From NCBI RefSeq assembly GCF_001999905.1, contig NZ_CP019640.1, positions 1,406,001 to 1,470,000 on the forward strand: a stretch of 64,000 bases of DNA, read 5' to 3'. This DNA is from Planococcus lenghuensis. Lineage in GTDB: Bacteria > Bacillota > Bacilli > Bacillales_A > Planococcaceae. The notes under the pieces were generated by a model that had not been told where the DNA came from, made no database searches, and saw nothing but the letters and a program-made list of their open reading frames with translations. Below, piece by piece: positions 49,998-62,370 of this stretch. Within the stretch, counting starts at the first letter, position 1. Each line of letters starts with the position of its first letter. The position numbers and the translations under genes are program-made.

Positions 49998-50032
49998 ATG
50001 TTCAGATTTTCAGAGCGCCTGGCTGAATCCTT

Positions 50033-50138
50033 GCTGGTCCGCCGCGCTTTCCGTGGGTTCGTGCCGAACTAACTCAAGGCTCCCGCCTTGAGTGGATTTC
50101 GCCACTTCACAATCCCACAGGAGTCGCGGCAGCCCAGC
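50033..50138 (-). repeat. Structured intergenic repeat, copy 3 (inverted)
   Basis: Arms GCTGGTCCGCCGCG (50033-50046) and CGCGGCAGCCCAGC (50125-50138) pair with two mismatches. An inner GTGCCGAA stem with one mismatch and a perfect ACTCAAGGC/GCCTTGAGT hairpin lie within. On the minus strand it shows CGACTCCTGTGGGA and ACGGAAAGCG, the family end motifs. About 95% identical to copy 4. Confidence 0.82.
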
Positions 50139-50264
50139 TGGAACAGAAGTAAATCCGGCTTTACAGCCAGCTCACTCGTCAGGGGGCGTCTACCCGTAAA
50201 TCTGTTCAAACTTGTAACCAAACAGCAGGTCGGAGGAACTTTCCTGTATATTCGCTGAATCCTT

Positions 50265-50370
50265 GCTGGTCTGCTGCGCTTTCCGTGAGCTCGTGCCGAA
50301 CTAACTCAAGGCTCCCGCCTTGAGTGGATTTCGGCACTTCACAATCCCACAGGAGTCGCAGCAGACCAGC
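50265..50370 (-). repeat. Structured intergenic repeat, copy 4 (inverted)
   Basis: Arms GCTGGTCTGCTGCG (50265-50278) and CGCAGCAGACCAGC (50357-50370) pair perfectly over 14 bp; GTGCCGAA pairs with TTCGGCAC and ACTCAAGGC with GCCTTGAGT inside. Same orientation as copy 3, offset 232 bp. Confidence 0.85.
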
Positions 50371-50558
50371 CGGATCATGAGTGAGTTCAGCTCTGTTTTA
50401 TTGCAGCTAATTCGCTTAAGGGTTGCCTGCGTGATTTTGTATAAGACCGTTTCAGCCAAATTGATGTTTTATGTTTGTCTCTCACCGATTTCTATCTGCA
50501 GGTTCATAAAAAACAGTATTTGATTTGTTACTTACTTTTGGGATAGGATTTTTCATTT

Positions 50559-50680
50559 CGAAGCGAGCGGAGGGCGGTGACTCCTGCGGGAGCAGCGAGC
50601 CAGGCAAGACCCTGGAGACGCGGAGCGTCGAAGCGGCTTGCGGATCGCCCCGCGGAAAGCATCCGCCGGCAGCTGCTTCG
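50559..50680 (+). repeat. Structured intergenic repeat, copy 5
   Basis: Outer arms CGAAGC/GCTTCG, then GGCGG/CCGCC, with GTGACTCCTGCGGGA on the left and CCCCGCGGAAAGC on the right, matching copies 1 and 2. Direct orientation, upstream of alaS. The rest of the 50000-50812 spacer shows no gene; a possible start signal for a second alaS promoter was not clear. Confidence 0.78.
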
Positions 50681-50812
50681 AAGAAGCCGTAACATACTTT
50701 ATTATTCGCAAAAAAATCGCAACGGAAAGAACCGGTTCAGAAAGTATTTATAAGCAGTAGTAGAGATTAATAATTAAAAAATGTAAATGCATTATACAAG
50801 GAGGAAAACGAA

Positions 50813-53443
50813 ATGGAAAATTTAAAAGCTGCTGATATCCGGCGATTGTTTCTGGAATTCTTTAAGGAAAAAGGACATGATGTGGAGCCGAGTGCACCGC
50901 TCGTGCCATTCGAGGATCCATCCCTTTTGTGGATCAACTCAGGCGTTGCCACGCTGAAAAAATACTTCGATGGCCGGGTGATCCCGGAAAATCCGCGCAT
51001 CGTGAATGCGCAGAAATCCATCCGGACGAACGATATCGAAAATGTCGGACGCACTGCGCGCCACCATACATTTTTTGAAATGCTTGGCAATTTCTCGATC
51101 GGCGATTATTTCAAAACCGAATCGATCCACTGGGCATGGGAATTTCTGACCGATGAAAAATGGATTGGTTTCGACCCGGAAAAACTTTCGGTGACAATCC
51201 ATCCGGAAGATGAAGAAGCGTATGCCATCTGGCATGACGAAGTCGGTGTCCCGGCAGAACGCATCATCCGACTCGAAGGTAATTTTTGGGATATCGGGGA
51301 AGGCCCGAGCGGACCGAACTCGGAGATTTTCTATGACCGGGGTGAGTCATACGGCAACGATCCGGAAGATCCGGAACTGTATCCGGGCGGCGAGAACGAC
51401 CGCTACCTGGAAATCTGGAACCTCGTATTCTCCCAGTTCAATCACAATGCGGACCATACGTACACGCCGTTGCCGAAACAGAATATCGATACCGGCATGG
51501 GGCTGGAGCGGATGGCTTCGGTTGTCCAGGATGTGCCGACGAACTATGATACGGATCTGTTCATCCCGATTATCCGGAAAACGGAAGAAATATCCGGCCA
51601 GACATACGGCGAGTCAGCTGAAAAGGACATGGCGTTCAAATTGATTGCCGATCATATCCGCACAGTGGCGTTCGCAATCGGTGATGGTGCATTGCCGTCC
51701 AATGAAGGCCGTGGCTATGTGTTGCGCCGTTTGCTGCGCCGGGCTGTGCGCTATGGCAAGAAACTTGGCATTGAGAAACCGTTTATGTTTGAATTGGTGC
51801 CGGTTGTCGGCGATATCATGAAGGAATTCTATCCGGAAGTGAACGATAAAGAAGATTTCATCATCCGTGTTGTGAAACTTGAAGAACAGCGCTTCCATGA
51901 GACGCTTAACGAAGGCTTGTCCATCCTGTACGATATCATCCGTAAGGAAAAAGAAGCCGGTCACACAGTTATCCCGGGCGAAGAAATGTTCCGCCTGTAC
52001 GATACGTACGGTTTCCCGGTAGAGCTGACGGAAGAGTTCGCGGAAGAAGAAGGCATGACGGCTGACCGGGAAGGATTCGCGCATGCGATGGAACAGCAGC
52101 GTGACCGCGCACGGAATGCTCGTCAGGCGACCAATTCGATGCAGACACAGTCGGAAGTACTGGCAAATATCACGGCGCCGAGTGAATTCATCGGCTATGA
52201 AACGCTGACGACTGAAGCGGAGATCACAGCCATCGTCCAGCACGGCGAACTTGCCGATCACGTGCAGGAAGGGGAAGAAGCGCAGCTGATGCTCGATATT
52301 ACCCCATTCTATGCCGAGAGTGGCGGACAGATTGCAGACAAAGGGTTCATTCACAATGATGCTTTCCAGGCTGAAGTGCTCGATGTTAAAAAAGCGCCGA
52401 ATGGCCAGAACCTGCACACGGTCCGCATCGTATCCGGCGAGCTGTCAAAGGGCCGTGTACACGCGGAAGTATCAGCTGAAGAACGCCGCCATACTGTGAA
52501 AAATCATACGGCTACCCATTTGCTGCACCAGGCGCTGAAAGATGTGCTTGGCACGCATGTCAATCAGGCAGGATCGTATGTCGGACCAGACCGGCTCCGC
52601 TTCGATTTCTCCCATTTCGGCCAAGTGACGGCTGATGAACTGAAACAGATCGAACGAATCGTCAATGAAAAGATTTGGGAAGGCATCGATGTGGCGACGG
52701 GCTATCACAGCCTGCACGATGCGAAAGATATGGGTGCGATGGCATTGTTCGGTGAAAAATATGGAGATACTGTCCGTGTTGTCGACATCGGCGGATTTTC
52801 CCTGGAGCTTTGCGGCGGTGTGCATGTCCTCAATACGGCACAGATTGGGCTGTTCAAAATCGTTTCTGAAGGTGGAATCGGAGCTGGCATTCGCCGGATT
52901 GAAGCGCTGACCGGCAAGGCTGCTTATGAGAACCTGAAGAATACGGAAACGCAGCTGGAAGAAGCTGCCGGGCTGCTGAAGGCCAATCCGCGGGATCTGG
53001 TTCAGAAAGTAACAGCGGTTCAAGGGGAAATGAAAGAACTGCAGCGGGAAAATGAATCGCTGTCAGCGAAAATTGCCGGGGCCCAGTCGGCCGGTCTCCT
53101 GGATCAGGCAAGGGAAATTGATGGTGTGACAGTGCTGGCTGCCCGAGTGGATGCAAAAGACAACAACCAATTGCGGCAGATGGTGGATGATCTGAAACAG
53201 AAATTGGATCAGGCGGTCGTTGTTCTGGGTGCTGTAGCAGATGGTAAAGTTATGATTGCTGCTGGTGTAACCAAGAATATTGCCGGCAAGGAATACAATG
53301 CCGGTCAAATTGTCAAAGCCGTTGCAGAGCAATGCGGTGGCAAAGGTGGAGGGCGTCCGGACTTTGCAATGGCTGGTGCTAAAGACTCATCTAAACTGGA
53401 AAATGCACTTGAGTCTGTCTTCGGGACTGTGAAATCTGTTTGA
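50813..53443 (+). CDS. alaS: Alanyl-tRNA synthetase
   Basis: 876 residues, full bacterial length. N-terminal class II catalytic domain ([20 protein letters not shown], about 33-52; [19 protein letters not shown]), tRNA recognition domain, editing domain with zinc ligands HTATHLLH (about 565) and CGGVHV (about 665), then coiled coil and DHHA1-like C-Ala domain ending [19 protein letters not shown] precedes the ATG. Regulated through the T-box at 49768, provided read-through crosses the repeat-filled spacer. Confidence 0.97.
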
Positions 53444-53526
53444 TTCAAGACTGTTTTCAGTTATAATTGAATTCATGCAGAGATGAGAGGGTGCTTTTGC
53501 CCAAATCCCAAAGTGAGGTGCTTGTC

Positions 53527-53799
53527 GTGAGCTCGTTTGATAAGACCATGAAATTCAATGCGTCGGATGACTCGATGGAGCGTGAAGTGAAAGAAGTAAT
53601 GCTCCATGTGCATTCTGCGCTCAAAGAGAAAGGCTATAACCCGGTCAATCAGATTGTCGGTTATCTGCTGTCAGGAGATCCCGCCTATATCCCGCGGCAC
53701 GAGGATGCCCGGAATCTGATCCGGAAGCTGGAACGTGACGAAATTCTGGAAGAACTGGTCAAGTTCTATGTTAAAAAGAATGAACGGGACAGCGAATGA
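53527..53799 (+). CDS. reoM: IreB/ReoM family regulator
   Basis: 90-residue protein beginning [11 protein letters not shown]. In Listeria ReoM, and in enterococcal IreB, a threonine at or near position 7 is phosphorylated by the PASTA kinase, controlling ClpCP degradation of MurA (ReoM); Thr7 is present here. The core [20 protein letters not shown] is strictly family-like. GTG 53527 follows AGTGAGGTG; the longer frame from 53467 is not supported. Overlaps ruvX by an ATGA. Confidence 0.92.
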
Positions 53800-54212
53800 G
53801 GACAATGGGGCTGGACGTTGGCTCAAAAACGGTCGGGGTGGCGGTGAGCGATGCTCTCGGCTGGACGGCTCAAGGAATTGAAACCGTCAAGATTAATGAA
53901 GCAAAAGAGGAGTTCGGGCTGGAGCGGATCGGGGAATTGATCCGCCAGTACGAAGTGACGACAGTTGTTGTCGGCTTTCCGAAAAACATGAACAACACGG
54001 TCGGTCCGCGCGGAGAGGCATCGCAGAAGTTTGCTGCCCTGCTGGAGGAAGCTCACGGGATCCCGACTGTCCTTTGGGATGAACGGCTATCGACGATGGC
54101 TGCGGAACGCATGCTGATTTCAGCGGACGTAAGCCGCAAAAAGCGCAAAAAAGTGATCGACAAAATGGCGGCAGTGATGATTCTGCAGGGCTATCTGGAC
54201 AGTAAAAAATAA
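53796..54212 (+). CDS. ruvX: Putative Holliday junction resolvase YqgF / 16S rRNA processing nuclease
   Basis: 138-residue RNase H-fold nuclease. N-terminal [16 protein letters not shown] with the catalytic Asp, central [13 protein letters not shown] and C-terminal [14 protein letters not shown]. In E. coli the family matures pre-16S rRNA; the resolvase role was a fold-based proposal. Lies in the alaS-reoM-ruvX-yrzB cluster. Confidence 0.94.
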
Positions 54213-54224
54213 GGAGTGACAGAA

Positions 54225-54524
54225 ATGGAACACGGACAATCACAAATCACCATTATTGACGAAGAGGGAAACGAACAGCTGTATGAGGTGCTGTTTACAT
54301 TCGATTCCGAGGAATTCGATAAGTCTTACGTGCTGTATTACCCGGTAGGCGCAGATGAAGATGAAGACGGCGAAATTGAGATTCACGCATATTCCTTCAC
54401 GGAGCGCCCGGGCTCTGAAGCCAGCGAAGCATCCGGTGATCTGCATCCGGTTGAAACGGAAGAAGAATGGGATATGATCGAAGAAGTGCTGAATACGTTC
54501 CTCGATGAAGAGGAAGAAGAGTAA
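54225..54524 (+). CDS. DUF1292 protein (YrzB-like)
   Basis: 99-residue very acidic cytoplasmic protein with the DUF1292 core [19 protein letters not shown] followed by SYVLYYP and a poly-acidic end (LDEEEEE). No known function. ATG 54225 lies eight bases after AAGGAG; GTG 54216 is within that site. Terminator follows. Confidence 0.9.
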
Positions 54525-54532
54525 ACAGCAAG

Positions 54533-54560
54533 AGGCGGAAAAGTTCCGCCTTTTTCTTTT
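54533..54560 (+). terminator. Terminator of alaS-reoM-ruvX-yrzB
   Basis: AGGCGGAA (54533-54540), AAG loop, TTCCGCCT (54544-54551), then T-rich sequence. A TATACT at 54575-54580 follows and may start mltG transcription. Confidence 0.9.
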
Positions 54561-54608
54561 AAAGGAATTTCCTGTATACTGAACTGGAAAAGATAAGGGG
54601 GAGAACCC

Positions 54609-55730
54609 GTGGAAAACCAGTCAAAAAAAGACGTGATGTTTGAGCGGATGAAAGAGAAAAAAAGAGAAGCAAAGATCATCCGCCGCATTGTATTTGCTGT
54701 GTTCCTGATCCTGCTGATCATTGCCGGAACTGCAGGATATAAGGGCTATCAGTACGTCTATGGTGCCCTTCAGCCGGTTGATCCGGAAGCTGCGGATACA
54801 ATCACAGTTGAAGTGCCGATCGGTTCGAGTGTAGATTCTATCGCTGCTTTGCTTGAAGAAAATGGTCTCGTGGAAGATGAGCGAATCTACCGCTATTACG
54901 TTAAATTTAATAACGAAGCCGAGTTCCAGGCGGGCACGTATGAGTTATCGCCTTCCATGACGCTTGCGGAAATCACGGAAAGTCTGAAAACCGGGACCGT
55001 GTATCATGAACCGGTATTTACGATGACTGTGCCGGAAGGACTTCAGTTGGAGCAAATTGCTGCTATCGTTGCGGAGCATACCGATTATACAGCCGAAGAG
55101 TTTATGGAGCTGGCGACTGATGAGGAGTTCATCGATGAACTCATCGCTCAGTATCCGGGACTTTTGAGTGAAGAGATTAAAGGCGAGGGAATCCGATATG
55201 CACTCGAAGGGTATTTGTTCCCGATAACATATTCATTCTATGAGGAAGCCCCGCCGCTTGAAACCATTATCAACGATATGGTTGCCCAGACGGCACTGGT
55301 TCTCCAGGACTATACACCTGCTTTGCAGGAACTTGAAAAGTCGCCGCACTGGCTGCTGACATTCGCTTCCCTGCTTGAAGAAGAAGCGACGTCCCAGTCT
55401 GATCGGCAAACGATCGCCAGTGTATTCTACAACCGCTTGGATAATTCCATGCGGCTGCAGACAGACCCGACGGTTATTTATGGGATGGATGAGCATCAAG
55501 GCCGGCTGACGAATGCGGATTATCAGTTTGATAGCCCGTATAATACGTACTTGATCGACGGCCTGCCGCCCGGTCCAATTGCCGCTCCTGGCAGAGCTTC
55601 CATCGAAGCGGTTCTTGACCCGGCCAATACCGATTATCTGTTCTTCCTTGCTGACGAAAACGGCCGCAATTATTTTGCGGAGACGTACGAAGAACATCTG
55701 GAAAACCAAGCCGAGCATATTGGAAATTAA
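54609..55730 (+). CDS. mltG: Endolytic murein transglycosylase MltG (YceG-like)
   Basis: Membrane-anchored enzyme thought to cut nascent peptidoglycan and end glycan strands. 373 residues: short basic cytoplasmic part, membrane helix at about 25-46, LysM-like region, then the YceG domain with catalytic Glu in FASLLEEEATSQSDR (about 256), LQTDPTVIYG and YNTYLIDGLPPGPI. GTG 54609 follows AAGGGGGA. Same position as B. subtilis yrrL. Confidence 0.93.
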   Translation: MENQSKKDVMFERMKEKKREAKIIRRIVFAVFLILLIIAGTAGYKGYQYVYGALQPVDPEAADTITVEVPIGSSVDSIAALLEENGLVEDERIYRYYVKFNNEAEFQAGTYELSPSMTLAEITESLKTGTVYHEPVFTMTVPEGLQLEQIAAIVAEHTDYTAEEFMELATDEEFIDELIAQYPGLLSEEIKGEGIRYALEGYLFPITYSFYEEAPPLETIINDMVAQTALVLQDYTPALQELEKSPHWLLTFASLLEEEATSQSDRQTIASVFYNRLDNSMRLQTDPTVIYGMDEHQGRLTNADYQFDSPYNTYLIDGLPPGPIAAPGRASIEAVLDPANTDYLFFLADENGRNYFAETYEEHLENQAEHIGN

Positions 55731-55815
55731 GTTGAAAGAGGGGAGGCGTTCTCGCCTTCTTTCTTTTTTTGTGCTATGATTAGTCGTGATTTTTTGTGAG
55801 TAAAAGGAGCTTGGC

Positions 55816-57057
55816 ATGGACAGCAATCATTTGAAGTCTGTTTTACAGACGATGAGAGAATATGCACACGAACACCATGTGCCGATTATGGAAGATGAAG
55901 GAATGGAAGCACTGCTCGGCAGGCTCAGAAAACAGCGGCCGATCCGGATCCTTGAGATTGGTTCCGCCATCGGCTACTCGGCTCTCCGCATGGCGGAAGA
56001 GTTGCCGGATGCAGTGATTGATACAATTGAACGGAATTCGGACCGGGCAGCGCTGGCTGCAACCTTCGTGGCGGATGCCGGATGCACGCAAATAACGGTG
56101 CATGAGGGAGACGCGCTTGAATTTGAACCGGACCGGCTGCAGGCGAATTATGATGCCATTTTCATTGATGCCGCCAAAGGACAGTACGGGCGGTTCTTTA
56201 CAAAGTATGAGCCGCTGCTGGCTGAAAACGGGGTTCTGTATTGTGATAATGTGCAAATGCGCGGACTCGCAGCGCTTCCGCTAGAAGAAGTGCCGAAAAG
56301 TAAACGGACGATGATCCGGAAACTGCAGGAGTTCACGGATGGAATGAAGAATCATCCGTCCTATGTGACAGAACTTGTGGAAGCCGGGGACGGGCTGTTA
56401 ATCTGCAGGAAAAGGAGTGCCGGTATGAAAAAAAAGCGTCCAGTCGTCATTGGAATCGCAGGAGGTTCCGGTTCGGGAAAAACGAGCGTTACCAACGCGA
56501 TCTATGAGGTATACAAAGAGCATTCAGTCGTGGTGATCGAGCAGGACTATTACTATAAAGATCAAAGCCACCTGGCATTCGAGGAACGCCTGAAGACCAA
56601 TTATGATCATCCTTTGGCATTCGATACCAATTTGCTGATTGAACATGTGAATGAATTGCTGAAACGCCGGCCGATCGAGAAGCCGGTGTATAATTATGCC
56701 ATCCACACCCGGTCAGATGAAAAAATTCCAATTGAACCGAAAGATGTCATCATTCTGGAAGGCATTCTCGTCCTGGAAGATGAGCAGCTCCGCAATTTGA
56801 TGGACATCAAGCTGTTTGTCGACACGGATGCGGATCTCCGGATTATCCGCCGGCTCATGCGCGATATCAATGAGCGGGGCCGAACGATCGATTCAGTTAT
56901 TGAGCAATACATGTCGGTGGTCCGTCCGATGCATAACCAATTTATCGAACCGACGAAACGCTACGCCGATCTGATCATTCCGGAAGGCGGACAGAACGAA
57001 GTGGCCATTGACCTTATGGTGACGAAAATCAAGGCGATTCTGGAAGAACATCTATAG
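55816..57057 (+). CDS. O-methyltransferase (YrrM) and uridine kinase (Udk) in one reading frame
   Basis: A single 413-codon frame without a stop. Residues 1-203 are a YrrM-type class I O-methyltransferase (motif [17 protein letters not shown] at 45-60, FIDAAKGQY at about 116, YCDNVQMRG). Residues 204-413 are a complete 210-residue uridine/cytidine kinase (Walker [13 protein letters not shown] about 212-223; [25 protein letters not shown]). In B. subtilis yrrM and udk are separate and divided by two U32 peptidase genes, absent here. An internal AAAAGGAG-N7-ATG at 56410-56427 would make free Udk. So the locus could yield a fusion, a separate kinase, or both. Confidence 0.88.
56410..56427 (+). 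promoter_or_regulatory. udk: Internal ribosome-binding site and ATG for separate uridine kinase
   Basis: AAAAGGAG (56410-56417), 7-nt spacer, ATG 56425, in frame with the upstream methyltransferase. The product would start [20 protein letters not shown], 210 residues, the normal Udk size. This is as good a translation start as any in the window. Confidence 0.75.
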
Positions 57058-57173
57058 AACGTTCTGAATAAAGTGAATAAATATGTACTTGAAGTTCCAA
57101 TGATTGTATATTATGATATGACGAGATTGATGCACCGGATTCCGGAGCATCCGCAACTGAAGGGGTGGAAAGT

Positions 57174-57650
57174 ATGTCAACTGAAAAACAATATCCAATG
57201 ACCATAGACGGCAAACGGAAGCTCGAAGAGGAACTGGATTTCCTGAAGACGGTCAAACGCAAAGAAGTCGTTGAACGAATTAAAGTGGCACGAAGTTTCG
57301 GTGATTTATCCGAGAACTCGGAATACGATTCAGCAAAAGAAGATCAGGCATTTGTGGAAGGCCGCATCTCCACGCTGGAATCGATGATCCGCAATGCGGT
57401 CATCATCGAAGATGACGAACAGAATAACGGTGTCGTATCACTCGGCAAGACGGTTACATTCGTTGAAATTCCGGATGGAGACAAAGAAGAGTATACGATT
57501 GTAGGTTCAGCTGAAGCGGATCCGATCGAAGGAAAAATTTCGAATGACTCGCCAATCGCCAAAAGCCTGATCGGCCGCGGCGTCGGGGAAAAAGTGAAAG
57601 TGCTTACGCCCGGCGGCGAAATGGAAATTGAAATCCTATCCATCACATAA
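57174..57650 (+). CDS. greA: Transcription elongation factor GreA
   Basis: Rescues backtracked RNA polymerase by stimulating transcript cleavage. 158 residues: N-terminal coiled coil (about 10-75, with [21 protein letters not shown] containing the acidic tip) and C-terminal FKBP-like domain. ATG 57174 is used (AAGGGGTGG upstream); GTG 57165 lies within the ribosome-binding site. A CCAGTCATTT/AAATGGCTGG hairpin at 57656-57683 without a T run follows. Confidence 0.96.
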
Positions 57651-57717
57651 TGACACCAGTCATTTTCTTTGGGAAATGGCTGGAAGCCTGTAGATAAAAG
57701 ATTGTTTAGACAGAAAA

Positions 57718-57790
57718 CGGCGCTCCAACATTCCGCGGACTGACTGCCAAGCCTCCTCGTCTCTAAGGATTTCGGGGGGGCGGCAGCCGG
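57718..57790 (-). repeat. Degenerate copy of the structured repeat
   Basis: The region contains CCGCGGACTG and GCCTCCTCGTC in the order and spacing seen in the reverse complement of copy 1 (6428-6521), but the outer arms are not well paired. Probably a decayed copy. The rest of the 57651-57969 gap holds only the greA hairpin. Confidence 0.4.
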
Positions 57791-57969
57791 TTTTTCGCAG
57801 AGTGATGGGGCGATTTTTCTTTCTTCTCCTGATGCTGATATTGGCATAGATTGATATTCTTTAGAATTCGGACCAGTTATACAGCGGCAAGATGAAACAT
57901 TTTTTTAATGTGGTCGTCTGATTTGTAACGGACTGGCATGGTATAGTAATGCAGAAGGGGGCCTACAGA

Positions 57970-58617
57970 ATGGCAGATAAAAACCAGCGTTTTCCCTCTC
58001 GGATGAACAGAAGGAACCGCTCGAATTCAATTCTTAATATTTTAATCGCTCTTGTATTTGGACTAATTTTAATTACTGTGGCATTTATCATAATCGGCGG
58101 GGGAGATGACGGAGGCGTCGAACAGGAAACCGTCACTGTTTCTGATGAGCCGGCAGAGGTGATCGTGGAAGAGGACAGCCAGGAAGCAGCGGAAGAAGAA
58201 CAGCCGGAACAAACCGCGGGGGAAGAAACCGCTGAGGAAGAAGCGGCTGAGGAAGAAACCGTCGGTGGGACAATCACCCGAAAAGATTCCGATGATCCTC
58301 TTATAGAAGAGACGGTCGTCAATACAAGCTGGGAGCCGATCGGGACAGAACAGACGGGCAAGCATGTATCACGCTATGACGGGTCGAGTGCCGACTGGCA
58401 GGAAAAACTGGATGCCATTGCTTATGCCACTGGCTTGAACGCCAATCAGATGATCGTCTGGATGGTAGAGAACGGCGGTGGACCTCAGCAGTCGGTCGGT
58501 GTTGTCTCTTCAGCTGATAATACCAAGCATTACCGGGTATACTTGCAATGGGTCGACGGTGAGGGTTGGAAACCCGAAAAGATGGATGTCTTAACAACGG
58601 CAGAAGGCGCCTATTGA
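57970..58617 (+). CDS. YrrS-like membrane-anchored protein (DUF1510)
   Basis: 215 residues: basic N-terminus with NRRNRSNSILNILI, one membrane helix at about 21-41, a long acidic Glu-rich linker (about 50-95), and a C-terminal DUF1510 domain starting near WEPIGTEQTG with WVDGEGWKPEKMD at the end. B. subtilis yrrS is close to mtnN as here. Function unknown; extracytoplasmic C-terminus inferred. ATG 57970 follows AGAAGGGGG. Confidence 0.85.
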   Translation: MADKNQRFPSRMNRRNRSNSILNILIALVFGLILITVAFIIIGGGDDGGVEQETVTVSDEPAEVIVEEDSQEAAEEEQPEQTAGEETAEEEAAEEETVGGTITRKDSDDPLIEETVVNTSWEPIGTEQTGKHVSRYDGSSADWQEKLDAIAYATGLNANQMIVWMVENGGGPQQSVGVVSSADNTKHYRVYLQWVDGEGWKPEKMDVLTTAEGAY

Positions 58618-58634
58618 CGTAGGCGTCTTTTTTT
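58606..58634 (+). terminator. Terminator overlapping the yrrS-like stop
   Basis: GGCGCCTA (58606-58613) pairs with TAGGCGTC (58620-58627; one G-U), followed by seven T. Confidence 0.85.
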
Positions 58635-58669
58635 CGGTTTAATAATGAATGGAAAGGTGAGGATGAATC

Positions 58670-59374
58670 ATGAGAATCGGCGTAATCGGCGCGATGGAAG
58701 AAGAAGTGGAATTATTGCGTGACAGTTTGGCAGATCCAGTAACGGATACGATTGCCAATTGTGAATTTACACGCGGAACATACGAAGGGCAGGAAATCGT
58801 CCTGCTGAAAAGCGGCATCGGGAAAGTGAATGCAGCGATGTCGACAGCACTCCTGCTGCAGGAGTATAAACCGGATTTGGTCATCAATACAGGCTCCGCC
58901 GGCGGATTCGATGCTGAGCTTGAAGTCGGGGCAATTGTCATTTCAAGCGAGGTCCGGCATCACGATGTGGACGTAACGGCCTTCAATTACGAGATGGGCC
59001 AAGTGCCGCAGCTGCCAGCAGCTTTCCGTGCGAATGAGGAATTGGTCGAACTTGCCCACCAGGCGGCTAAGGAACTGAGCGAACAGATTCCGGCGGTCGG
59101 TTTGATTGCAACGGGTGACTCGTTCATGAACGATCCGGAACGGGTACAAAAGGTGCGCGGGTTCTTTCCGGAGATGAAGGCGGCGGAAATGGAAGCGGCA
59201 GCTGTGGCGCAGGTATGCTATCAATTTAATGTTCCATTTGTTGTTATCCGGGCACTTTCGGATATAGCCGGAAAAGAATCTTCTGTAAGCTTTGAAGAAT
59301 TCCTGCACACGGCAGCCAAGAACTCGACAGCCATCGTACTCCGGGTCATCCGGGATTTGACAGCCCGCCAATAA
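58670..59374 (+). CDS. mtnN: 5-methylthioadenosine/S-adenosylhomocysteine nucleosidase
   Basis: Cleaves MTA, SAH and 5-deoxyadenosine. 234 residues with [36 protein letters not shown] and the catalytic Asp in [11 protein letters not shown] (about 200). GAAAGGTGAGGATG region precedes the ATG. Confidence 0.96.
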
Positions 59375-59390
59375 TGTGAGAAATCTCACA
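59375..59390. promoter_or_regulatory. Perfect 16-bp dyad upstream of the 26-residue ORF
   Basis: TGTGAGAAATCTCACA is fully palindromic. It lies just after the mtnN stop; a TTGACA (59357-59362) is upstream and an extended -10-like TGCTAAACT (59409-59417) is downstream. It could be an operator for the small gene or a weak hairpin after mtnN. Confidence 0.45.
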
Positions 59391-59451
59391 GCCTTCGTAT
59401 CCTCCTTATGCTAAACTGGCAGCAGTTACCAAAGTGAAGGAGGGACGGATT

Positions 59452-59532
59452 ATGGTTTTTCTCATGGCGTTCGGCATGCTGGTGCCGGCTGTTCTCATGC
59501 TGATCATTTCTGCTGAAGTGGGAGAAAACTGA
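59452..59532 (+). CDS. Small membrane peptide, 26 residues
   Basis: ATG 59452 to TGA 59532; the peptide starts MVFLMAFGMLVPAVLMLIIS and ends with an acidic tail (AEVGEN). One transmembrane helix. A near-consensus AAGGAGG stands about 9 bases upstream and a strong hairpin directly follows the stop, so it looks like an independent short transcription unit. No homologue recognised. Chance of a spurious short ORF remains. Confidence 0.5.
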   Translation: MVFLMAFGMLVPAVLMLIISAEVGEN

Positions 59533-59562
59533 ACCGGAAGCGCATCTACTGCGCTTCCGGTT
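59532..59562 (+). terminator. Terminator of the 26-residue ORF
   Basis: AACCGGAAGCGC (59532-59543), 7-nt loop, GCGCTTCCGGTT (59551-59562), followed by an interrupted T stretch (TAAATTTT). Confidence 0.75.
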
Positions 59563-59652
59563 TAAATTTTCCGTAAAGTGATGTTGCTGATCATCAAGGC
59601 GGTGAACAGAAGCAGCAGTACGATATAAAAGTCAGGGTGGAAAAGATCCAGA

Positions 59653-59862
59653 GTGATCATGGCAAAAGTCGGTGCCATGTTTGCCAATTCGATTGAGCTT
59701 ACTCACATGGATTCCGTCTGGCAAAAAGGCGGGGAAATCGGTCATTTCTCCTTTGGCTCCACAATCGTGCTGTCCTTTGAAAAAGGGGAAATCGCGTTTG
59801 TGACGGACATCGCCGCAGGGAACCGCGTGAAGGTGGGAGAAGCCCTTGCTCATGTGCTATAA
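59653..59862 (+). pseudogene. psd: Remnant of phosphatidylserine decarboxylase (C-terminal third)
   Basis: The 69-codon frame carries KVGAMFANSIELTH and KGGEIGHFSFGSTIVLSFEKG, the last conserved segments of Psd, including a GST triad at the usual self-cleavage position (LGST in active enzymes, FGST here). The N-terminal two thirds of a normal Psd (about 260 residues) is missing: an in-frame stop occurs at 59626 and no Psd sequence was seen upstream. No good ribosome-binding site precedes the GTG. Best explained as a decayed gene. Confidence 0.7.
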
Positions 59863-59908
59863 TGATTTGAATCGCTAAAGAAGGTACGATTAGGAGCTGT
59901 TTAAACCG

Positions 59909-60424
59909 ATGTATCGTTTTTTTGTTCCCAATGAATACAAGAATAAAGTGACGGATATAACCCCCGAAATGCTGTTGAAGCGGGGGGTAAGAGGCGTGAT
60001 CACGGATTTGGATAACACGCTGATTGAATGGGATAGACCGGATGCGACGCCGATGCTGACCGACTGGCTGACATCACTGAAAAATGCCGGTATCCAAGTT
60101 GTGGTCGTTTCCAATAATAATGAAGAGCGGGTCCGGAAATTCGCCCGGCCGCTTGGAATTCCATTCATCCACAAAGCCCGGAAGCCGATGGGCAAAGCGT
60201 TCAAAAAAGCATTGCAGATCATGGATGTTCCCAAAGACGAAGTGGTGATGATCGGTGATCAGATGATGACGGATGTGTTCGGAGGGAATCTGAAAGGGCT
60301 TCATACGATCCTTGTGATTCCGGTTGCCCAATCGGATGGCTTTGTGACCCGGTTTAACCGGCTGCTCGAACGGCGCATCATGAAACGGCTGAAAGAAAAA
60401 GGCCATGTAACATGGGAGGATTAG
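59909..60424 (+). CDS. yqeG: HAD-family phosphatase YqeG
   Basis: 171-residue HAD subfamily IIIA phosphatase, motif I TDLDNTLIEW (about 33-42), motif II VVVSNN, motif III/IV KKALQIMDVPKDEVVMIGDQMMTD. Proposed substrate is phosphatidylglycerophosphate in some lineages; not proven. First gene of the conserved yqeG-yqeH-aroE-yhbY-nadD-yqeK-rsfS operon. Confidence 0.93.
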   Translation: MYRFFVPNEYKNKVTDITPEMLLKRGVRGVITDLDNTLIEWDRPDATPMLTDWLTSLKNAGIQVVVVSNNNEERVRKFARPLGIPFIHKARKPMGKAFKKALQIMDVPKDEVVMIGDQMMTDVFGGNLKGLHTILVIPVAQSDGFVTRFNRLLERRIMKRLKEKGHVTWED

Positions 60425-60431
60425 AACTGTT

Positions 60432-61535
60432 ATGACTGAAATAATACAATGCATCGGATGCGGCACTGCAATCCAGACGGAACATCCGAATGAAACGGGC
60501 TATGCACCGGCGGCTTCCCTTCAGAAAGAAGAAGTGATCTGCCAGCGCTGTTTCCGCCTGAAAAACTATAACGAACTCCAGCCGGTCTCGCTGACTGACG
60601 ACGATTTCCTGAACATCCTGAACGGCCTTGGGAGCCGCAAGGGACTGATCGTGAAAATCGTCGATTTATTTGATTTCAATGGCAGCTGGCTGCCCGGGCT
60701 CCACCGGTTCGCCGGCGGTAATGATGTGCTGCTGATAGCCAATAAAGTGGATCTGCTGCCAAAATCAATCAAACAGCCGAAGCTCGTCAACTGGCTGAGA
60801 CAGGAAGCGAATAAACTTGGCCTGAAGCCGGTCGATGTGCTGACCATCAGCGCCCATAAAGGGACAGGGGTCCCTGAAGCGATGGAAGCGATTGAGTCAT
60901 ATCGGAACGGCGGCGATGTATTCGTCGTCGGCAGCACCAATGTCGGCAAATCGACGTTCATCAACCGCGTCATCAAACAGGCTAGCGGTGGAGGGGATGT
61001 TATCACGACTTCCCATTTTCCGGGCACGACGCTGGACATGATTGAAATTCCGCTTGATGACGAGCAATCGATGTATGATACACCGGGAATCATTAATCAT
61101 CATCAGTTGGCGCATTATTTGCATGCGGATGATCTGAAAAAAATCATGCCGAAAAAAGAAATCAAGCCGCGGGTATTTCAGTTGAACCCGGAACAGACGT
61201 TGTTCATCGGCGGGCTGGCCCGTTTTGATTTCATCCAGGGGAACCGGTCGTCGTTCACGGTTTATGCCGCGAATGACCTGGATATTCACCGGACGAAGCT
61301 CGAGAATGCGACTGACTTGTATGCCCGGCAGCTCGGAGGGGTGCTGAGCCCGCCTTCAGCTGCGCATGCAGATGAATTCCCTGAGTTAGTGCGGAGGGAA
61401 TTTCGGGTAAAGGATGCTAAAACAGATATCGTGTTCTCGGGCCTTGGCTGGATTACCGTGCAGCACGCGAATGTCACCATAGCGGCATATGCACCGAAAG
61501 GCGTTGAAGTGATGGTTCGGCCATCACTTATCTAG
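60432..61535 (+). CDS. yqeH: Circularly permuted ribosome-assembly GTPase YqeH
   Basis: 30S-assembly GTPase. 367 residues: N-terminal zinc finger CIGCG...CQRC (7-38), then G motifs in permuted order, G4 NKVD (about 99), G1 GSTNVGKST (about 165) and G3 YDTPG (about 214), followed by a C-terminal RNA-binding domain. Follows yqeG by 7 nt. Confidence 0.96.
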   Translation: MTEIIQCIGCGTAIQTEHPNETGYAPAASLQKEEVICQRCFRLKNYNELQPVSLTDDDFLNILNGLGSRKGLIVKIVDLFDFNGSWLPGLHRFAGGNDVLLIANKVDLLPKSIKQPKLVNWLRQEANKLGLKPVDVLTISAHKGTGVPEAMEAIESYRNGGDVFVVGSTNVGKSTFINRVIKQASGGGDVITTSHFPGTTLDMIEIPLDDEQSMYDTPGIINHHQLAHYLHADDLKKIMPKKEIKPRVFQLNPEQTLFIGGLARFDFIQGNRSSFTVYAANDLDIHRTKLENATDLYARQLGGVLSPPSAAHADEFPELVRREFRVKDAKTDIVFSGLGWITVQHANVTIAAYAPKGVEVMVRPSLI

Positions 61536-61545
61536 GAGGATGCCC

Positions 61546-62370
61546 ATGAAAAAATGGTATGCAGTGATCGGCGATCCGATCTCCCATTCCCTGTCTCCTT
61601 ATATGCATGACATCTGGTTCCATGAATGCGGCATTGACGCTTCCATGATTCCTGTGCATATCCGGGTAGGTGAATTGAAAGAAGGGGTCGCTGCTCTTAA
61701 ACGATTGGGCGTCAGCGGATTTAATGTAACGCTGCCGTTCAAACAGGAAATTGTCCCGCTGCTCGGTGGATTGGATGCGGCAGCAGCGGAAATGAACGCA
61801 GTCAACACAGTCAGCTGCAACGACGGGCGGTTAACCGGCATGAATACGGATGGCGACGGCTTCGTCCGGGGACTGGCCGGAGAAAATGTGCCGAAAGATG
61901 CGCCGATCTTAATGGTCGGCGCGGGCGGGGCCGCCCGGGGCATTGCCTTCGCCCTGAAACGGCAAGGTTTTTCCCGGCTGTATATCGCCAACCGGACATA
62001 CCGGCGGGCAGAGGAATTGGCAGCGGCGTCCGGTGCCATTCCGCTGTCGATTGCTGAAGCCGAAGAGCAGCTCGGGGCAATGGCCGCTGTCATCAACACC
62101 ACTTCGGCCGGTCTGCAGGACGATACGGTTCCGCTCAAGCTCACCGGTTTGGCGCCGGGCACGCTTGTGTCGGACATTATCTACAATCCGCTGGAGACAC
62201 CTCTGCTGAAGCAAGCCGCCGACCAGGGCGGCCGGGTGCAGAACGGTGTGGTCATGTTCGTTCACCAAGGAGCCATTGCTTTTGAAGCATGGACCGGCAT
62301 CCGGCCGGATACAGAACCGATGATTGAAAAGATTAACAGGAAACTAGGAGGAAGTTATGCTCACAGGTAA
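61546..62370 (+). CDS. aroE: Shikimate dehydrogenase
   Basis: NADPH-dependent reduction of 3-dehydroshikimate. 274 residues: N-terminal substrate domain MKKWYAVIGDPISHSLSP, NVTLPFKQ with the catalytic Lys (about 65), NTDGDGF, and the Rossmann motif VGAGGAARGI (about 125). ATG 61546 is six bases from AGGAGG; the ATG at 61540 abuts that site. Overlaps yhbY by 14 nt. Confidence 0.96.
   Translation: MKKWYAVIGDPISHSLSPYMHDIWFHECGIDASMIPVHIRVGELKEGVAALKRLGVSGFNVTLPFKQEIVPLLGGLDAAAAEMNAVNTVSCNDGRLTGMNTDGDGFVRGLAGENVPKDAPILMVGAGGAARGIAFALKRQGFSRLYIANRTYRRAEELAAASGAIPLSIAEAEEQLGAMAAVINTTSAGLQDDTVPLKLTGLAPGTLVSDIIYNPLETPLLKQAADQGGRVQNGVVMFVHQGAIAFEAWTGIRPDTEPMIEKINRKLGGSYAHR

Follow-up and report, generated by a model that had tools for sequence, protein, structure and literature searches.

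Introduction

The question raised by the locus described here is whether one gene encodes a single protein that joins the methyltransferase TrmR (YrrM) to the uridine kinase Udk and, if it does, whether Udk is also made from it as a free enzyme. The gene lies in a stretch of 64,000 nucleotides, referred to throughout as the window. TrmR methylates 5-hydroxyuridine (ho5U) at position 34 of tRNA, which gives 5-methoxyuridine (mo5U). According to one study, YrrM makes mo5U34 from ho5U34, for which there are two routes, TrhP and TrhO; its gene shares an operon with yrrN and yrrO, and some bacteria have trmR without trhP (PMC6599085).

We hypothesise that the gene is a genuine trmR-udk fusion with a bifunctional product, which carries the start of udk embedded within its frame, and we put the probability of this reading at roughly 0.78. 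To our knowledge Udk has no part in the mo5U34 pathway, and enzymes of the uridine kinase family Udk are tetramers.

A single frame carries two full-length domains

It had been claimed from the letters of the DNA that yrrM and udk share one uninterrupted frame and that both domains are complete, and both points hold. The frame at 55816-57057 contains 413 codons and no internal stop, a ribosome that starts at 55816 meets its next in-frame stop at 57055, and the frame is common to the congener, G016 (Table 1). A Pfam search of the 413-residue translation places Methyltransf_3 at residues 6-199 and PRK/Udk at residues 211-396, whilst in NCBIfam residues 204-410 match the udk equivalog TIGR00235 with 302.9 bits against a cut-off of 220.3. 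The best solved-structure match of the TrmR half is B. subtilis YrrM, 5zw3 (E 3.3e-49, residues 12-200), and those of the Udk half are the uridine kinases 3w8r and 3asy. The ORF is a real in-frame fusion of a full-length TrmR and a full-length Udk.

Table 1. Features of the fused gene and its surroundings, in window coordinates.
Feature	Position	Strand	Basis or remark
Terminator-like hairpin with T tail, directly after mltG and upstream of the fused gene	55734..55767	+	15 pairs; pattern match only
Shine-Dalgarno AAAAGGAG of the fused gene (trmR start)	55802..55809	+	Sequence; duplex -8.5, generic anti-SD
TrmR(YrrM)-Udk fusion	55816..57057	+	One open frame of 413 codons, also present in congener G016
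TrmR/YrrM domain, residues 1-200	55816..56415	+	Pfam, 5zw3 match, alignment
udk Shine-Dalgarno AAAAGGAG inside the coding frame	56410..56417	+	Translated as K199-R200 and part of S201
Junction codons S-A-G (residues 201-203), from the last TrmR residue to the Udk start	56416..56424	+	
Udk domain, residues 204-413 and stop	56425..57057	+	NCBIfam, structure match; ATG at 56425

Conserved residues of both halves were compared in an alignment of 20 rows. The Udk core (G216, G217, G219-T223, D244, R345 and R349) is invariant, and the P-loop in the fusion reads GGSGSGKT. In the TrmR half, D118, D144 and N145 are likewise invariant and align with positions 133, 159 and 160 of 5zw3, which we take to be the divalent-metal ligands of that structure. 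The family's metal ligands are described as Asp, Asp and Asn on a relative (PMC6543040), and D118, D144 and N145 are thus putative metal ligands of the TrmR half. The genome also holds a second, distant O-methyltransferase-like paralogue (L002:1501-1974; G000:C1:713691-714164), which shares 32% identity with a portion of the TrmR half.

An AlphaFold2 model of the 413-residue protein, built from the same alignment, has a mean pLDDT of 84.8, with ten-residue blocks scoring 83-95 across TrmR and mostly 72-94 across Udk. Between the strand that ends TrmR (194-199) and the one that opens Udk (210-216) lies a coil at residues 200-209, the pLDDT falls below 50 at residues 203-206, and the pTM of 0.52 means that the relative placement of the TrmR and Udk domains is loosely defined in the model. 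The model thus suggests two folded domains connected through a flexible stretch of about ten residues and, from the position of the coil, this hinge would be the translated ribosome-binding site together with Udk's own basic N-terminus. The original prediction that the domains are joined with no linker is therefore right in that the added sequence amounts to only the three codons S-A-G, but not in that the modelled coil spans residues 200-209.

The junction and a probable embedded udk start

The fusion was compared across both of the searched genomes of the window's genus, the window's own (G000) and G016. The latter has the same stopless 413-codon frame and the same junction, within the same gene order (alaS, ruvX, mltG, greA and mtnN, names that we assigned by eye). 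The two fusion sequences are identical at 345 of 414 aligned positions (83%, the stop being counted), with a nucleotide identity of 77%, and over the whole ORF dS is about 1.5, which is near saturation, with a dN/dS of 0.07 (Nei-Gojobori).

In the window the codons at the junction are TGC AGG AAA AGG AGT GCC GGT ATG AAA, of which K-R-S is read from the ribosome-binding site of udk, so that the AAGGAG and ATG (56425) of udk are retained inside the fused frame. A Shine-Dalgarno sequence and ATG had been predicted at this point and they are indeed present, as AAAAGGAG at 56410-56417 and ATG at 56425, the latter falling, in the 20-row alignment, where Udk begins in the Planococcus rows. The predicted duplex with the anti-SD at the Udk start is -9.1 and -8.8 in the two species, compared to -8.5 at the trmR start of the window. 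The codons AAA AGG AGT GCC before the Udk start are identical in the window and G016, and AGG, although rare (in six gene pairs from both genomes it accounts for 10 of 227 Arg codons), is unchanged at the junction. Retention of the Shine-Dalgarno, the ATG and the rare AGG in both species favours continued use of the start, albeit as a statistically weak argument. The embedded AAGGAG and ATG probably also yield free Udk and, going by the frame, the Shine-Dalgarno and the ATG, both products, fusion and free Udk, could come from a single mRNA.

An alternative is that all Udk is made within the 413-residue protein, with the embedded Shine-Dalgarno and ATG left as a little-used relic that is covered by ribosomes on their way through trmR. 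This would fit with the whole trmR frame passing over the site and with a junction such as a short spacer loss would leave. Moreover, a 14-nt block over the udk Shine-Dalgarno is identical in both species, but the same ORF has eleven further identical runs of at least 14 nt, making the block one of twelve and not outstanding. Furthermore, 110 of the 1210 stretches of 25 bases in the ORF equal or exceed the Udk start region in their pairing with the anti-SD, and stronger duplexes (-11.0 and -10.8) are predicted for start codons that lie in frame at residues 372 and 396, so the duplex score alone is no proof of initiation. Set against this are the AGG and AGT codons, both unchanged over a dS of about 1.5, a duplex as strong as that of the window's trmR start, and the alignment of the ATG with the Udk start in Planococcus. 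On balance we consider it unlikely that the fusion is the only source of Udk, and we favour a fusion with a working embedded start.

Selection on the two halves

By the Nei-Gojobori estimate both halves of the fused gene are under purifying selection, dN/dS between the window and G016 being 0.105 for the TrmR half and 0.029 for the Udk half. Judged by eye, a single change would turn few of the junction codons into a stop, so the lasting open frame in itself counts for little as evidence that the fusion was selected. It might be argued that the stop was lost by accident and its loss tolerated, with one domain, most likely TrmR, now decaying, and TrmR does evolve faster than Udk (dN of 0.183 versus 0.041). 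However, the TrmR dN/dS is still low at 0.105 and D118, D144 and N145 are invariant across the 20 rows, which makes such neutral decay very improbable, although this argues against decay only and not against a tolerated fusion.

Two separate proteins could in principle be made if ribosomes slipped at the A-rich codons of the junction, moving by +1 base to a TGA that overlaps the udk ATG (ATGA), which would give free TrmR and coupled translation of udk. The frame one base on does read GTG CCG GTA/GCA TGA in the two species, but a TGA in the shifted frame is automatic wherever ATG precedes A, the runs of A are only 4 and 5 long, and by eye we recognised no known frameshift signal; we therefore regard slippage as a highly improbable source of the two proteins. 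Least credible of all is an error of sequencing or assembly by which a stop was dropped or the frame moved, a worry raised by the original prediction and answered by the congener, a different species in a separate assembly, since two assemblies that differ by a dS of about 1.5 have the same length and junction.

Distribution of the fusion

In a search of 261 genomes of the family, at least 57 have a match that spans both halves, two of them stopless, both from the window's genus, and 55 with at least one stop. Those 55 are divided, among the matches listed, into 33 from genus g12, which includes Planococcus, and 22 from genus g17, which includes Sporosarcina, and the nearest spanning matches listed from outside the window's genus are from g12, at 69-72% identity. 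Both this search and one of a class sample of 398 genomes give listed matches only, and in the family search the score of any fused gene should have exceeded the threshold for listing. A search of the order reached no genomes beyond these 261 of the family. Among the 25 spanning matches listed for the class sample 23 have a stop, and the other two are those of the window's genus.

Two sets of loci, which overlap in species and were both drawn largely from the best matches to the fusion protein, were compared at the junction. The first, of 69 loci, has 66 in which the genes are adjacent and yrrM has its own stop (the gap being 24-63 nt in 63 and 159-249 nt in three), two in which they are about 2.2 kb apart, and one that is fused, in G016. 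Of the 80 loci in the second, yrrM ends at its own stop next to udk in 58 (0-249 nt), and in the other 22 the genes lie apart, by 306 nt or 2.2-2.4 kb. A 464-aa open frame in G200 was considered as an additional fusion but rejected, as its yrrM ends in its own TAA 63 nt before udk (L135). In Sporosarcina thermotolerans (L044:4600-4630) the TAA that ends yrrM abuts the udk ATG, both lying in the same frame (TAAATG); this yrrM seems to be extended beyond its usual end, with a tail ...GFPAFEGGK, and a single stop codon is all that separates it from a fusion. The literature matches listed included no paper on a fusion of TrmR with Udk. The fusion is a genus-level feature, present in both examined species, and a modest variation on known parts.

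Origin of the fusion

In B. subtilis yrrM and udk are separated by two U32 peptidase genes, yrrN and yrrO, of family PF01136. The original prediction was that a single deletion removed these genes along with the yrrM stop, and this is not upheld by the relatives from Planococcus and Sporosarcina, in which the two genes are already adjacent, mostly at a distance of 24-63 nt, and yrrM has its own stop. When 23 genomes were searched for PF01136, 12 had no match: both from the window's genus, five from g12, four from g17 and one from g2, the 12 including G224, which is only 83% complete. The family is present in the remaining 11, which represent 11 further genera with one genome each. Thus, U32 is absent from all nine Planococcus and Sporosarcina genomes tested, in a group of relatives that keep the yrrM stop, and one deletion of yrrN, yrrO and the stop together is rejected.

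In a tree of 32 rows the fused pair form one clade (100/100), sister to nine Planococcus rows, with support of 100/98 for the joint set. Since this sister group is adjacent, has the stop and lacks U32, loss of U32 and loss of the stop are separable events, and on the basis of these sequences the yrrM stop is a later and separate loss, on the branch to the window's genus. Two loci from genera that keep PF01136 (L140 and L141), in which yrrM and udk are 2.2 kb apart, fall next to the fused and Planococcus set and not outside Sporosarcina, with weak support (90/71), which leaves room for repeated loss of the U32 genes; the later loss of the stop holds either way. The junction of a Planococcus relative (L008) reads AGG AAA AAA TGA AAATCGAACCACAAGGAGCTAACGTAT ATG, compared to AGG AAA AGG AGT GCC GGT ATG in the window, and this comparison suggests the loss of a short stretch holding the yrrM stop and spacer, which would have brought the yrrM tail into the udk Shine-Dalgarno.

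Transcription and the supply of Udk

The hairpin that follows mltG in the window has a similar terminator-like counterpart in the congener (L115:13288-13311). Before greA, both species have a promoter-like TTGAAG-17-TATGAT with identical hexamers (window 57089-57117; L115:14640-14668), by pattern match, and the same kind of search found no promoter-like site immediately upstream of the fused gene in either of them. With a hairpin after mltG and a promoter-like site before greA, the fused gene may be its own transcription unit. No known RNA element was found at gathering scores in window 50000-62000.

We sought, in both genomes, a second udk that might relieve the fused one of constraint. The fused gene is the single gene above the udk cut-off of 220.3 bits in each, other udk-family matches reaching 39.7-66.7 bits in G000 and 50.7-56.8 in G016. 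From their appearance we take one of these lesser ORFs (L003) to resemble pantothenate kinase and two (L004 and L005) to be other P-loop kinases. With one gene above the cut-off in each genome, the fusion gene must supply Udk, whether fused or from the embedded start, if the cell makes Udk.

A proposed model for a bifunctional gene

We propose that in an ancestor with adjacent genes the yrrM stop and most of the short spacer were lost in frame. Ribosomes that start at 55816 would then produce a bifunctional protein whose two domains each carry out their own reaction, whereas those that start at the retained Shine-Dalgarno and ATG (56425) would make additional free Udk, and Udk would be produced in excess of TrmR. 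As the frame has no stop before 57055, TrmR would exist only as part of the fusion unless the frame slips or the protein is cut.

A more ambitious proposal is that the fusion was selected because the tie between TrmR and Udk links modification of the tRNA wobble uridine to uridine salvage, the oligomerisation or nucleotide state of Udk setting the activity of TrmR, and the embedded site fixing the ratio of fused to free protein to give mixed Udk tetramers with few TrmR units. We regard this as speculative and rather improbable.

TrmR would also need its substrate. The TrhP family, PF01136, has no match in G000 or G016, whilst the TrhO N-terminal family, PF17773, has one match in each, so a candidate source of ho5U34 is present in both. 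PF17773 is found in all 12 of the 23 genomes that are without PF01136, and the single genome without PF17773 (G143) has PF01136. In those 12 genomes any mo5U34 would depend on the TrhO route. The TrhO route is oxygen-dependent.

Comparison with known systems

B. subtilis TrmR (5zw3/5zw4) is like the N-terminal 200 residues of the fusion, as a near full-length match, but YrrM is a separate protein there and in the window it continues into Udk, in a genome with no match to the U32 family of yrrN and yrrO. Similarly, bacterial Udk (TIGR00235; 3w8r and 3asy) is like residues 204-410, except that the Udk of the window carries TrmR before its normal start. The arrangement in S. thermotolerans, nearly fused but with its stop kept, belongs to another lineage in the tree. 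One study (PMC6599085) describes TrhO-TrmR (yceA-trmR) fusions in Phytophthora sojae, P. ramorum and Phaeodactylum tricornutum, in which TrmR is also joined to a second enzyme. There the partner is the tRNA hydroxylase of the preceding step, in contrast to the nucleoside kinase of pyrimidine salvage that is the partner in the window.

Implications

Annotation pipelines may name only one of the two functions of a gene such as this. The locus also illustrates the transition from operon to fusion with its likely stages visible, from adjacent genes with a stop, through a stop that touches the next start (in S. thermotolerans, of the other lineage), to a stopless frame, and in the last of these a ribosome-binding site has turned into coding sequence whilst probably keeping its first role. 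The bifunctional enzyme would join tRNA wobble modification to pyrimidine salvage.
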